From a virus, in the IMG/VR virus record IMGVR_UViG_3300034279_000601, positions 1-22,018 of that record: a DNA stretch of 22,018 nucleotides; one strand, written 5' to 3'. Both the position numbers and the translations under genes were made by a program. The stretch's first letter is position 1, and every line of letters begins with the position of its first letter. Positions 1-19,200 of the stretch are shown in pieces. A model generated the notes under the pieces. It had not been told where the DNA came from, ran no database searches, and saw only the letters and a program-made list of their open reading frames with translations.

Positions 1-181
1 GGAACTCGACGGCTTCCTCGTAGGTCATGCCGTAGGATTCCAGTTGAGCGATAACGCGGTCGTAGTCGTAGATCACGAATGCTTCCGATCCGAATCGGCT
101 GGCGACGCCTAGGATGCAGTCGTCGAAGCCGTCCATGAGCAGGAGGTCTGGGTTTATGTCTGCGATTTGATCACGTGTCAT
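1..181 (-). CDS. Conserved phage protein of unknown function, C-terminus cut by the window edge
   Basis: Reading leftward from the ATG at 181-179 gives an open frame with no stop up to base 1, about 60 residues. It begins MTRDQIADINPDLLLMDGFD and continues with DDCILGVASRFG and VIYDYDRVIAQLESYGMTYE. From memory, this resembles a small protein family found in many phages, in which an acidic MDGFD...GV segment is followed by a YDYD...GM(T/S)EEEA segment and then an FN...GAWVGE-like end; that end would lie outside this window. The function of that family is not known to me. The gene is the last readable member of the leftward replication operon and is separated from its upstream neighbour by the repeat-bearing gap at 197-290. 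No clear ribosome binding site precedes the ATG. Confidence 0.8.
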   Translation of the reverse strand, partial: MTRDQIADINPDLLLMDGFDDCILGVASRFGSEAFVIYDYDRVIAQLESYGMTYEEAVEF

Positions 182-196
182 AGGAGATGGTCGCGG

Positions 197-290
197 AAAA
201 AGAGGGGACACTTTGGACGAAAAGAGGGGACACTTTGTACTGCACGGAAATGGTGGGATTAAGTTGCAGTTGAAAAAGAGGGGACACTTT
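197..290. repeat. Three direct copies of a 17-18 bp repeat (AAAAGAGGGGACACTTT)
   Basis: The sequence AAAAGAGGGGACACTTT occurs at 197-214 (with one extra A), 220-236 and 273-290 (with one extra A), all in the same orientation and with no differences in the core. Copy starts are 23 and 53 bases apart. The core has short inverted ends (AAAG...CTTT). The array fills most of the gap between the stop of the 70-residue gene at 290 and the start of the next leftward gene at 181, and the last base of copy 3 is the last base of that stop codon. Possible readings are a protein-binding (iteron or operator) array or REP-like repeats. I recall similar GGGGACACTTT-type repeats near RAYT transposases, but no such gene is present here. 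Confidence 0.9.
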
Positions 291-502
291 CACGGTTCGC
301 TGTCGCTGTTCAGGTCGTATTCCGTCGCCTCCAGGAGCGCGATGCGGAGTTGGCTCTCGGTCGCCTGCGCGGTGCCGCAGAGCATTCCGAGGCGTTCGTA
401 GAAACGGTACTTACCTTCCGGCGAGAGGTGCTCGGGTGCCGCCTGACCATGTAGGGCCTGCGTGATAGCAGCTGCGCGGATTTCTGGTGGTTGATGGCTC
501 AT
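290..502 (-). CDS. Small protein of unknown function in the replication operon
   Basis: This is a 70-residue protein, MSHQPPEIRAAAITQAL..., ending in an acidic DLNSDSEP tail. The gene is supported mainly by context. Its ATG overlaps the stop codon of the upstream nuclease gene in an ATGA junction (499-502), the same coupling used between the helicase and the nuclease, and it lies in the same operon. The protein looks helical, with a Glu/Arg/Leu pattern over residues 30-60, and has no membrane segment, cysteine motif or recognisable domain. Its TGA stop starts inside the last copy of the 197-290 repeat. It could be a small accessory factor of the helicase/nuclease pair, but that is only inferred from position. 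Confidence 0.75.
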   Translation of the reverse strand: MSHQPPEIRAAAITQALHGQAAPEHLSPEGKYRFYERLGMLCGTAQATESQLRIALLEATEYDLNSDSEP

Positions 503-870
503 AGGTTATCGGTGTCTGAAACGGATCGCGCCACGATGGCGTGCCCGCCGGCTGTGGTGATTTGGTCGAGCCAGTTCTGTTGGTCAGGACGGACCCGGCC
601 GGTTTTGGTTTTTACTTCGATGGAGAGAAATTGGGCGATCGGCTTGCCGACCATGTCGGGTGTCACCGTAAGCGTGCGCCAGCCGATGAGGTCACCGGAC
701 CCGGGGAACAGGCCCATGCGGACGTGACGTGCGTCGCGCAGGAAGACGCCTTCGGGATCGCGTAGCGCCTGACCGACGTAACCCTCGCCGACCTGATTAC
801 GGAAGACGCGGACGTGCGGTTTAGATCCAGCGGCGCGGAGGATCAGGGCTTGGAGTTCGGATTCAGTCAT
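499..870 (-). CDS. VRR-NUC domain nuclease (PD-(D/E)XK superfamily)
   Basis: This 123-residue protein matches a stand-alone VRR-NUC domain over its whole length. Visible landmarks are RVFRNQVG (residues 21-28), GSGDLIGW with the putative metal ligand Asp60, the IEVKTKTG strand with Glu85 and Lys87, and RPDQQNWLDQI with Gln97/Gln98, ending in a GGHAIVARS strand. These are the expected D...ExK...Q residues of a PD-(D/E)XK active site, so it should be catalytically competent. Known phage VRR-NUC proteins are structure-specific DNA endonucleases, including Holliday-junction resolvase-like enzymes. Here it probably cuts branched intermediates during replication or recombination. It is coupled to the helicase upstream by an ATGA overlap (867-870) and to the small gene downstream by another (499-502), so a shared transcript is likely. 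Confidence 0.9.
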   Translation of the reverse strand: MTESELQALILRAAGSKPHVRVFRNQVGEGYVGQALRDPEGVFLRDARHVRMGLFPGSGDLIGWRTLTVTPDMVGKPIAQFLSIEVKTKTGRVRPDQQNWLDQITTAGGHAIVARSVSDTDNL

Positions 871-2231
871 AGAGATTTACGTTGACGTGCTTGCCAGCGG
901 AAGAAGGCCCAGCCTAGCTTATATCCCCGCTGCTTGGCGAGTGCTCGGAAGTCGTCGAGCGTTTTGCATTTGCCTTCTTCACGGCGATCTTCGCGTTTCT
1001 TGGAGATGTCTTCGATCGACAGGCGTTGAAGCTCACCATCGACTTCTTCGATTTCGCGAGCGGCTATCTCACGCTGCGATCCACACTGAGGGCAAACGGT
1101 TCCTGCAAAAATCGCGAAGCACTTGGAGCACTGCTTGGTTTCGACGAGGGATGATTTCTTCAATCGCTTCTCGCGCCCGCTAAGGTCCCAGTCGCGCTCC
1201 TGCTCAGCGAGTCCATGGCGGAGACAGTTCCCGACGTGGTCGAGGATGATCGCGTTAGCCTTGCCCGGGTACGGCCGTAGCGCCCGGCCCACCTGCTGAA
1301 GGTGCATGGAAAGAGACTGAGTCGGCCGAAGCAGGATGGCTGCGTTCACAGCCGGCAGATCGAATCCCTCGGAGATGAGTTCGCAGGAGGTAAGGACCAG
1401 GATTTTTCCAGCGGTTAGATCATCCACGCGCTGCTTTCGGACTTCGGGATCTAGGGTTCCGTCGATGCTAGCAGATGGGATTCCGCAGGAGTTGAACGTA
1501 TCGGCGACGTGCTGAGCGTGAGCGACCGATATACAGAACGCGACGGCCCGCTGTCGATTACAGAATCTCACGTAATGAGTCACGGCATCGCCTGTGATGC
1601 GTGGCGTATCGACAATCTCCTCGGTCTCGGAGCGATCGAAGTCGCCGGCAATCGTGTGGACCTGAGATAGATCGACCACCTCGCGAGGTGCGTAGTACAC
1701 GGGCTGAGCCAGGAATCCGTTGTCGATAAGCCACTGGACGGACGGACCCATGACCATGCGGTCGAACATGACCCCAAGGCCCTTGCCATCGAGGCGCTCT
1801 GGGGTCGCCGTCACGCCGATAAACTTGGCGGTCGGCCACGCTGCAAACATCTGGACGTAGGACTTGGAGACCGAGTGGTGCGCTTCGTCGATGATAACCA
1901 GGTCCGGAGCGGGTATAGTATCCAGGCGCCGCGCTAAGGTCTGGATCGAAGCGACCATGGCAGGCTGAGTGGACGTGGATTTACCCGCCTGAATGAAACC
2001 ATGCGGAACGCCGACGCACTTCAGAGTGGCGCTGATTTGATCGAGGATTTCGCGGCGATGCGCGACGATGATCACGCGAGATCCCCGTTTAAGGACCTGG
2101 GACGTGATGTAGGAGAAGAGGACTGTTTTACCGGAGCCGGTCGGGCTCACCGCCAGCGGGCGGTTTGCTCCAGATCCGAACGCTCCTCTGATATCGTTTG
2201 CCAGCTGGTTTTGGTAAGGCCGGAGTTCCAT
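867..2231 (-). CDS. RadD-like superfamily 2 DEAH helicase with C-terminal zinc ribbon
   Basis: This 454-residue SF2 helicase begins MELRPYQNQL, a Q-motif-like start common in RadD/SSL2-type enzymes. Motif I is SPTGSGKT (residues 29-36), followed by VIIVAHRREIL (Ia), DEAH (115-118) and the VGVTATPERLDG motif III region. In the second RecA domain the motifs SEGFDLPAVNAAILLRPTQS and QQVGRALRP (motif VI arginine finger) are intact. Near the C-terminus CSKC...CPQC forms a CX2CX8CX2C zinc ribbon, a feature shared with RadD (YejH). A longer frame upstream needs a GTG start at 2303 and would read through the divergent control region and the start of the regulator gene, so I chose the ATG at 2231. It is the first gene of the leftward operon and is coupled to the nuclease by ATGA. 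It probably unwinds or remodels forked DNA for that nuclease. Confidence 0.92.
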   Translation of the reverse strand: MELRPYQNQLANDIRGAFGSGANRPLAVSPTGSGKTVLFSYITSQVLKRGSRVIIVAHRREILDQISATLKCVGVPHGFIQAGKSTSTQPAMVASIQTLARRLDTIPAPDLVIIDEAHHSVSKSYVQMFAAWPTAKFIGVTATPERLDGKGLGVMFDRMVMGPSVQWLIDNGFLAQPVYYAPREVVDLSQVHTIAGDFDRSETEEIVDTPRITGDAVTHYVRFCNRQRAVAFCISVAHAQHVADTFNSCGIPSASIDGTLDPEVRKQRVDDLTAGKILVLTSCELISEGFDLPAVNAAILLRPTQSLSMHLQQVGRALRPYPGKANAIILDHVGNCLRHGLAEQERDWDLSGREKRLKKSSLVETKQCSKCFAIFAGTVCPQCGSQREIAAREIEEVDGELQRLSIEDISKKREDRREEGKCKTLDDFRALAKQRGYKLGWAFFRWQARQRKSL

Positions 2232-16281: not shown

Positions 16282-19200
16282 ATGCCATCATACAATCCAG
16301 TCGATTACGGCGCCGATCCCTGCGGACTAAGAAACAGCGCGTGGGCGATCAGTGAATGCTTGAATCTCACTGGCAAATGCCATTTTCCGGTTGGCACGTT
16401 TCTGCTTGGATCGAGCCCGGGAGCGAAGATTATCAACCGTGTCCGCACCGGAGGCGTTGCGACGTTCAACACCTCTACTGCCCACGGACTGGTTGTTGGA
16501 GAGAAAATTACGCTGTACGGTTTTACGGACCCTACGTTCAACGGACCTGACGGAAATCCCGCAACTTATTATGGCTTCCGCGTCGATGCAACCCCAAGCT
16601 CAACTACGTTTACAGCAACGGTTCCTGGACCAAACTCTGGATTGGTCACCGAAGATGGATGGATAAACCTTGTTGGCGGAGGATTTACATCCTCAATTCT
16701 ACTTGGATACGATGCGGCGATCAACAATATTGAGATCACTGGTCAAGGCGCAGGAAAAACTATCCTTAAGTTTGCAGATCATACATCGACAAAGATATTT
16801 GATTTGTATGGGTTAAGCGCCCAGATGATTAAGACTATCGGGACCGCCACTGGATCAGGAGTTGTTGGAGTTCCTTTAAGCGTAAAAGGAAACCCAGCAG
16901 ATGCTACAAATTGCAAAAATACTTTAATACAAGGTCTTACTATTGATGGAAATTACAGAAACAATTCCGTTGCTGATGTTAAAATAGTATCAGTTCAGAG
17001 AACTAACGGAATAAATACCTACAACTCTGCAATACCTATTGCATTTGTTCATCCGTATGGTTTAACAACTCAGTTTTCATCACAGGCACCTCCTGTATAC
17101 GTCCCTCCAATTCCTCCGTTGTATACAAACGTAGGAATATATCAGCAATATATCAGTAATGTTATAACCGCCGGAACTGGAGCTGATGTTACATTTGTGG
17201 GTTATGGTCAAGTTCAGAACATCACTCAATTTTCGTTTCAACGAGACGTTGGCGTTGTATTAATTCAAGCAAAAAGAAATTCTGTAAATCAAGCTATTTA
17301 CACTCGCCATCCTAATTGGTATTTCCCTTTTACTATTGGAAATTCGTTTACTGTAACTGGATTTTCAAACGCAACGCTAAATGGAACATTTGTAGTTGTA
17401 TCGTTTCCTTCAATCAACGAGGTGTTGTGTGTTAATGTTGGGCCTACGACGACTGTTCAGATTAATGGATTTGAAAGGTTAGCTGGAAATGCAATTTACG
17501 ATACTGCAACTCCGCACGGTTTCGTGGGCGGAGAAAACGTCCTGATTCAAGGTCTTTCCGATGCGTCGTTTAACGGGACGTTTGTCGTAAATGGATATCC
17601 AAGCCCGGTTCAGTTTACTTGCGCTAACCCTGGAACCAACATTGGACCAATTCCAGACTTAGGCACCGTTGACCTGCTCCAAAACGGCCGCGCATGGTCC
17701 GCTCCAGATGTCCTCCTAACACCGCAAGTAAACGCTGGCGCAAACTCGGTCTACACTATTGCTGGCATTAACCACACAGGAGAGAACGCACTGATTCAAG
17801 ATTGCGAGTTCTACGATTTTGGGAACGGGACGTTGAACCAAGAATCATTTGTGGTTAAAACATTCCTCCCAATGACGGTGGAGGATGGAACGCCAGGAGC
17901 CAAAGTTCTAAGAAATAAGTTCGGATACGAAGGCAGCAACTCGGTTCAAGGAACACTTTACGTTGGAAACGCAGAGGCTGTTACGGAGGTTGTGGTTGGC
18001 GGATATTCATCAATAGTAGATCCGATTAATATCATATCAAGATCGGCCGGAATTGCTACATACACCTGCGTGATGAAGCACACGTTGAGGGTGGGTGATG
18101 TAGTGGTGGTAAGCGGTTTTTCAGACGCGACATTCAACGGCACATACACCGTTCTTACCATACCAGATCAGTATAAATTTACAGCTGCAAACGCTAACCC
18201 AAACGTCCTCCCTGGCCTGTACCGAGATGGCACAGTAATGATGCTTCGCAGCCGGCGCATCTTTGCATCGGATTGTGTCGTAGAAGAAAACAAATTTATA
18301 TCTGGACCGAATAGACCGGATGCTCAAAGCCCGCTACACGCAGTGACGGTGAGGGAAACGGTTGATGCAGAGGTAAGGTACAACAATTTCAATGGTTATA
18401 TTGGAACTTGTTTCTACGTTGATTCGTTTTTTCATAAAGGAACCCACCTACACCACAATGAAGCGTTGAATGTTAGTTCTTTTATTGCGCTGCAAACTGT
18501 AGATTATTACGCACTAAATAACGCCCAGTTTTATTCCCCGTTTACAGCGGCGCATAAGAACATGGTAATTGAAAACAACGACGTTTTGTTGTCTGGGCCT
18601 GATTCATGGTATTACCAGCCAGCCTATCCTCCGATCAACGCTCCGTTTCTTATTAACAACCACGATGTAGATAAGTCTGCTTTTTACTATCCAACGGATT
18701 ATCAAATTCCTGTTACATCAGCGACGCGCCTTACTGGCGTAACGACGTTTACAACGGCTTCAGCGCACGAGCTTCAACCTGGTTTTAAGGTGACGATTCT
18801 GAAAACCGTCATCGGAAGCTTCATTGGAAAATTCACGGTTATAGCCACTCCGACTACCACGACTTTCACCGTCTTAAATCCAGGCGTAAACGAAAGCACC
18901 ACTGGAGGGCTTCTGGGAATTGATAGCCCGGTAGACTTTCCTTGGGAAATCCAACCCATCGGATTTCAGCGCACCGCAGGGGTGGCCACGTACACGACGA
19001 ACAAGGCGCACCAGATGGTCGTTGGATACCACGCAACCGTTGAGGGGCTCAGCGATGTTTCGTTCAACGACGAGGTGATCGTGACTGGGATTCCTACGCT
19101 GACGACGTTTACCTGCGCGAGTCCTGGCCCCAATGTCGCGTTCACATCATCAACCGGGAACTTCCTAAGGTACGTCGAGAACATCCAGATTGGATGCAAC

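Follow-up and report, generated by a model that had tools for sequence, protein, structure and literature searches.

What are three identical 17-bp direct repeats doing between two leftward genes of a phage replication operon? The window analysed here takes in an entire IMG/VR record, 22,018 bases long and most likely a fragment. The repeat, hereafter R, reads AAAAGAGGGGACACTTT on its plus strand and AAAGTGTCCCCTCTTTT on the sense (leftward) strand, where it is pyrimidine-rich and asymmetric. The original prediction had noted three exact copies spanning 197-290, with starts 23 and 53 bases apart. The three copies are indeed there, at 198-214, 220-236 and 274-290; the predicted span ends correctly at 290 and should begin at 198, and the distances between starts measure 22 and 54 bases. 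These copies are the only matches to R with three or fewer mismatches on either strand of the 22,018 bases. Dinucleotide shuffles of the window gave a mean of 0.07 matches, and none of 100 reached three.

The features of the locus, from right to left, are as follows.

867-2231, minus strand: DNA helicase gene (phrog_16; ResIII/Helicase_C), start approximate
499-870, minus strand: VRR_NUC nuclease gene
290-502, minus strand: small ORF of 70 aa, upstream neighbour of the cassette, without a PHROGs family match; TGA stop
274-290, minus strand: R1, forming the cassette's left edge and sharing 1 base with the stop codon (292-290) of the ORF upstream
239-270, minus strand: inverted repeat ACTGCA (239-244) / TGCAGT (265-270), kept in most, not all, cassettes
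220-236, minus strand: R2, an exact copy of the 17-bp repeat
198-214, minus strand: R3, whose end lies 16 nt from the cassette gene's start codon; in several relatives the gap is 3-4 nt
2-181, minus strand: cassette gene (phrog_13182), start codon 181-179, truncated by the contig end; 82 aa in relatives

The leftward gene order in the window is thus helicase, VRR_NUC nuclease, 70-aa ORF, R copies and phrog_13182 gene, and in relatives a primase gene (Toprim/DUF5906) follows directly downstream. The predicted setting was right on both counts, in that the repeats lie between two leftward genes (the ORF ending at 290 and the gene with its ATG at 181-179) and in that their neighbours are replication genes.

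A cassette gained and lost as one block

An exact-word scan of viral contigs returned R in 61 stretches, which by sequence context are 12 clusters at the same place, 34 single copies in a tail gene and 15 single copies elsewhere. The last 15 span five other contexts, and we estimate that about this number of contexts would arise by chance in a collection of this size. The cluster belongs to a cassette composed of one to three copies of R, often a conserved inverted repeat, and then the 82-aa phrog_13182 gene, situated between the small ORF that follows the VRR nuclease gene on one side and the primase gene on the other. R and the phrog_13182 gene are present or absent as a single block of about 270-365 bp. 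Among 36 loci retrieved via the nuclease gene, 30 were readable once two cut loci (L082, L117) and four distant ones with another context (L113-L116) had been dropped: 12 carry at least one perfect R, one (L112) carries decayed R and 17 are empty, the primase starting a few tens of bases past the 70-aa ORF.

The closest pairs of occupied and empty loci delimit the block. L102 differs from L097 by a 293-nt insertion whose flanks are 98.9% (527 nt) and 99.7% (350 nt) identical; L109 carries 345 nt more than L105, between flanks of 97.5% and 98.6% identity; L083 carries 321 nt more than L085, between flanks of 91.1% and 96.9% identity; and the insertion in L106 relative to L097 is 345 nt. On a tree of RecT the cassette label requires three changes, two of them forced by well-supported branches. 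A separate observation concerns the 92.5-kb contig IMGVR_UViG_3300021962_000056 (L100/L336), in which the cassette site is empty and a distant phrog_13182 gene without R lies elsewhere.

In the closest pairs R1 marks where the insertion begins, and the gene block is either wholly there or wholly missing, as would be expected if R served a mobile cassette as its end or as a recombination site and played no part in regulation. We consider such an insertion footprint unlikely: the opposite end of the cassette is without R, and the same gene occurs in 67 other fetched phage loci that lack the repeat. Moreover, no copy of R is kept at empty sites, so the block was not lost through recombination between two flanking copies.

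The repeat is likewise confined to one version of the gene. Relatives of phrog_13182 are encoded at 179 viral loci, 80 of which were fetched; the 12 best gene relatives among these are exactly the 12 R-bearing contigs, and none of the 67 other fetched phage loci has an R-like sequence upstream of the gene. Because R precedes the gene only in the 12 R-bearing contigs and the decayed one among the 80, it is tied to the gene version of this phage family, and by this survey it is not a property of phrog_13182 at large. Forty-three phage records match phrog_13182, and 41 of them are Bacillus phages. The predicted fold of the cassette protein (mean pLDDT 91.9) matches only uncharacterised phage proteins, with no PDB chain at E <= 0.001.

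Constraint on the repeat within variable leaders

Read leftward, the commonest order is R1, inverted repeat, R2, five bases, R3 and gene. L089 has R, a one-mismatch R, the inverted repeat and R; L243 has two copies followed by the inverted repeat; L102 and L277 have two copies only. Three phages carry a single copy, two of them together with the inverted repeat (L083, L084) and one alone, 3 nt ahead of the ATG (L087). The last perfect R ends 3-4 nt from the ATG in L087, L095, L102, L103, L108, L109 and L277, 16 nt from it in the window, L088 and L089, and 50 nt from it in L083 and L084, where it is the only R. All copies in the decayed cassette of L112 have decayed, one part of R, CCCCTCTTTT, being retained. 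Two of these contigs, L243 and L277, are filed under Candidatus Aquidulcis and Nitrospiraceae genomes and belong to the family of the window phage; the leader of L243 holds an additional 13-bp tandem repeat, CGGAGCCGCTTTT.

Sixteen cassettes (of which L095 and L096 share an identical leader) contain 32 perfect and 2 one-mismatch copies. Among the columns of six three-copy cassettes, variation affects 1 of 51 in R and 11 of 47 ungapped ones elsewhere (p = 0.0014), the latter becoming 26 of 62 once gap columns are included (p = 2.4e-7). R is unchanged even in single-copy cassettes, and between lineages with perfect R, 19-36 of the 81 third codon positions in the cassette gene are different (about 30%). 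By this comparison R is under constraint, being near-identical while the surrounding DNA diverges, although copying from repeat to repeat could partly account for it. The instability of the copy number is what one would expect of a short local duplication that has no function and is kept by recency. We give this explanation a very small probability, as R stays identical between lineages that have diverged in their spacers and third codon positions.

A proposed control region for the cassette gene

The copies of R are best read as the control site of the cassette gene, since they lie near its start codon, are constrained and sit in a block gained and lost with one gene. In our judgement there is about an even chance that they act as the 5' control region of a small cassette with an accessory gene, set within this phage family's leftward replication operon. 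R would then be a sequence-specific site for a putative regulator, a protein acting on DNA or on mRNA, which would set expression of the cassette gene apart from that of the remaining operon; a single R would be sufficient, and further copies would have come from local duplication. Of the three options originally offered for the repeats (origin, operator or REP-like relic), an operator-like control site fits best, although a regulator of the HTH_3 type, sought in 14 records, was found in none of them. The accompanying suggestion that the spacing, close to two and five helical turns, suits cooperative protein binding fared less well. Both copy number and order vary, and the long spacing is 52, 54 or 55, so that helical phase is not kept.

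Several observations count against a control site. The distance from R to the start codon ranges from 3 to 50 nt, the start-adjacent copy in L106 carries a mismatch, L112 has decayed copies only, and the reading leaves unexplained why a tail gene contains the R word and a RecT-like gene a part of it (see below). Neither a sigma-70-type promoter nor a terminator-like site was found on the leftward strand near the cassette (1-2700); the helicase gives its best matches, of 45-47% identity, to Synechococcus phages, no more than a hint at the host. The R region has no Rfam match. An RNA hairpin in the leader was considered and rejected: although conserved, the inverted repeat lacks covariation, and the transcribed strand has an energy z-score of -1.72.

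Evidence bearing on an origin of replication

Direct repeats adjoining replication genes raise the possibility that an initiator binds R beside the helicase and primase genes, making it an iteron-type or accessory origin. Rep_3 plasmid iterons are, like R, direct repeats, and two bacterial doublets of the 11-mer GGGGACACTTT adjoin genes for Rep_3 plasmid initiators. One is on an Enterococcus-like plasmid contig (L280), which shares with R the 22-bp spacing as well as the 11-mer, and the other is on a Saprospiraceae contig (L235). The skew check that had been proposed gave a divided answer, in that the cumulative GC-skew minimum of five relatives lies at a distance of 0.3-5 kb from the cluster; in two of these it coincides with the contig end, and in the others it sits 2.5-5 kb off. 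R differs from the plasmid iterons in having no Rep_3 initiator gene (PF01051, 0 of 14 records), an unstable copy number, and in being dispensable. Absence from close relatives had been named in advance as an argument against an essential origin, and the R segment is missing in 17 of 30 readable relatives and even where flanks are ~99% identical, while three phages carry one copy only. Because empty and occupied phages can share such flanks, an essential origin is argued against, and we regard any iteron-type or accessory origin as decidedly unlikely.

Evidence bearing on mobile-element relics

The 11-mer GGGGACACTTT also forms doublets in other genomes, above all in Omnitrophota, and this is the point in favour of REP-like or IS-derived repeats. 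Of the 52 stretches with such doublets in bacterial genomes, the only relatives of the window phage are L243 and L277, contigs of its own family that carry MAG or single-cell names, and several of the remaining stretches resemble ordinary tandem repeats by eye. R is arranged in direct rather than palindromic-pair fashion, each phage genome has a single intergenic cluster, and scattered intergenic copies do not occur in the phages. The earlier remark that no transposase is visible held when a Y1 transposase (PF01797) was sought, with 0 of 14 records positive while the positive controls worked (5 of 14 control genomes); a RAYT encoded by the host is possible. A REP relic is accordingly the least probable explanation that we entertained.

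Candidatus Omnitrophota MAGs hold many GGGGACACTTT pairs, some oppositely oriented, in the manner of a REP family (L233, L237, L238, L240, L242, L244, L245, L247-L250, L253, L254, L266-L268, L270, L271, L274, L275, L279, L281-L284). Literature matches listed for two 11-mers included no phage titles.

Comparison with known phage repeats

None of the listed literature matches on iterons, direct repeats or morons describes R. Phage morons are extra genes that lie between operon genes in some relatives only and have their own promoter and terminator; the cassette resembles them in being an extra gene inserted between genes that are adjacent in relatives. The stoperators of cluster A mycobacteriophages are short asymmetric sites, some of them away from promoters; they are numerous and oriented with transcription, and their repressor is known. 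Two of the papers cited below name them (PMC3203893, PMC4351075). R is similar in being short, asymmetric and in part remote from promoters. It differs in that its sites are few and that the cassette copies have the opposite orientation to transcription from the copies in the tail and RecT genes.

The start-associated repeats of actinophages, SAS and ESAS, were described in cluster K mycobacteriophages and cluster EF Microbacterium phages, and the portions of those accounts that deal with them ascribe no known function to them (PMC3203893, PMC7302621). As presented there, SAS shares with R that it is short, asymmetric, unusually conserved, placed upstream of a start codon (for R at 3-4 nt in several relatives only) in one orientation, overlapping the upstream stop codon in some cases, restricted to one phage group and associated with non-structural genes. 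In contrast, SAS occurs at about 10-19 places before many genes and has a Shine-Dalgarno core (PMC3203893, PMC7302621), whereas R precedes a single gene in one to three copies, its sense strand AAAGTGTCCCCTCTTTT is without such a core, and its distance from the start varies from 3 to 50 nt. As two defining features fail (many genes and the Shine-Dalgarno core), we do not file R as SAS, although it may work like SAS. In the relative G010 (L065-L067), a crude pattern finds no Shine-Dalgarno core upstream of 16 of 20 genes, a sign that the host does not depend on one; with most phage genes lacking the core by this test, its absence from R is not special.

Cluster O mycobacteriophages carry 17-bp repeats, including one that flanks Corndog gene 14 (PMC4351075). 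Within what that report says of them, these repeats have in common with R their length and a link with the gain or loss of a small gene, but the common cluster O repeat has dyad symmetry and occurs over 30 times in each genome (PMC4351075), whereas R is asymmetric. The repeat at Corndog gene 14 flanks the gene and one copy is left in empty genomes (PMC4351075), whereas R is one-sided and absent from empty sites.

Judged from sequence, R is a real, constrained, start-proximal repeat of a phage gene that is gained and lost. If it is a regulatory site that travels with the accessory gene, a gene together with its own control would have been added inside a busy operon. The relatives, with three, two, one, decayed or no copies, form a natural series for testing such repeats, and a second, independent case with empty-site controls would be useful beside the actinophage start-associated repeats.

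Copies of the repeat word in tail and RecT genes

When 26 records were searched with up to three mismatches, nearly all extra matches fell in the cluster, the tail gene or a RecT-like gene, and two records from outside the family (G021, G023) had one weak match each. Within family records the non-cluster copies are confined to tail and RecT coding sequence, and every R copy in a family genome is on one strand. The tail or structural gene of ~1100 aa contains the exact 17-mer in many relatives (L118-L181; L065-L081), extended in some to the 20 bases ACGAAAAGAGGGGACACTTT, in the frame ...STKRGDTFG...; the tail gene of the window phage is without it. Since at most 0.15% of 17-mers recur exactly more than 200 bases away in four relatives, and since the codons used at the tail site vary unusually little (18th of 829 windows), the presence of the R word in the tail gene is not easily put down to chance. 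Of 64 loci, four (L142, L143, L148, L158) escaped the pattern used to find the tail site, although their contigs carry the exact 17-mer; these were excluded from the codon-choice ranks, which drew on 28 of 48 unique sequences of the tail gene and 31 of 42 of RecT.

The RecT-like copy is weaker. Only the first 13 bases of R match, in a different reading frame (...GKEGTDEW...), about 0.5% of 13-mers have a distant copy, and the site (L182-L232) is unconstrained, at 145th of 276 windows. An association with the cassette was considered, the site being present (12-13 of 13 bases) with 8 of 8 intact cassettes, 3 of 12 empty loci and 0 of 1 decayed cassettes (Fisher p = 0.0014, decayed cassette left out). 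It dissolves on the tree, where the site is inherited by one clade that includes empty members. Erasure of the motif from RecT in L184, L206 and L207, where five codons are recoded, was also rejected, comparably dense patches of change occurring elsewhere in the gene.

These words could be the targets of antisense RNA seeds, the leftward leader pairing with tail mRNA over 16-17 nt and with RecT mRNA over 12-13 nt. The single strand shared by all copies of a family genome, the extent of the matches (16-17 of 17 at tail sites, 12-13 of 13 at RecT sites) and the fixed codon choice in the tail gene are consistent with such pairing. The tail site, however, is missing from 6 of the 12 cassette phages whose tail gene was covered, including the window phage, and is present in many cassette-free phages, and the RecT site is unconstrained and clade-inherited. 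Antisense seeding is on this evidence highly unlikely. The fuller proposal has a probability slighter still: the cassette leader would be a trans-acting RNA device whose one to three 17-nt units, carried by the leftward transcript, pair perfectly with a site in tail-gene mRNA and nearly so with RecT mRNA. Gain of the cassette would in that case tune the late or recombination genes of the phage itself or of a competing, co-infecting relative. A common origin of the tail and RecT words by copying, or a binding protein shared with the cassette, is possible.

Two side observations were also made. At 16501-18500 of the window, inside the 1103-aa tail gene, GC content is 0.40-0.475 compared with 0.545 window-wide, and this stretch is perhaps a recently exchanged receptor-binding part. 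In the 47-kb relative G010 (L065-L067), a single ORF of 3584 aa occupies 33007-43761.
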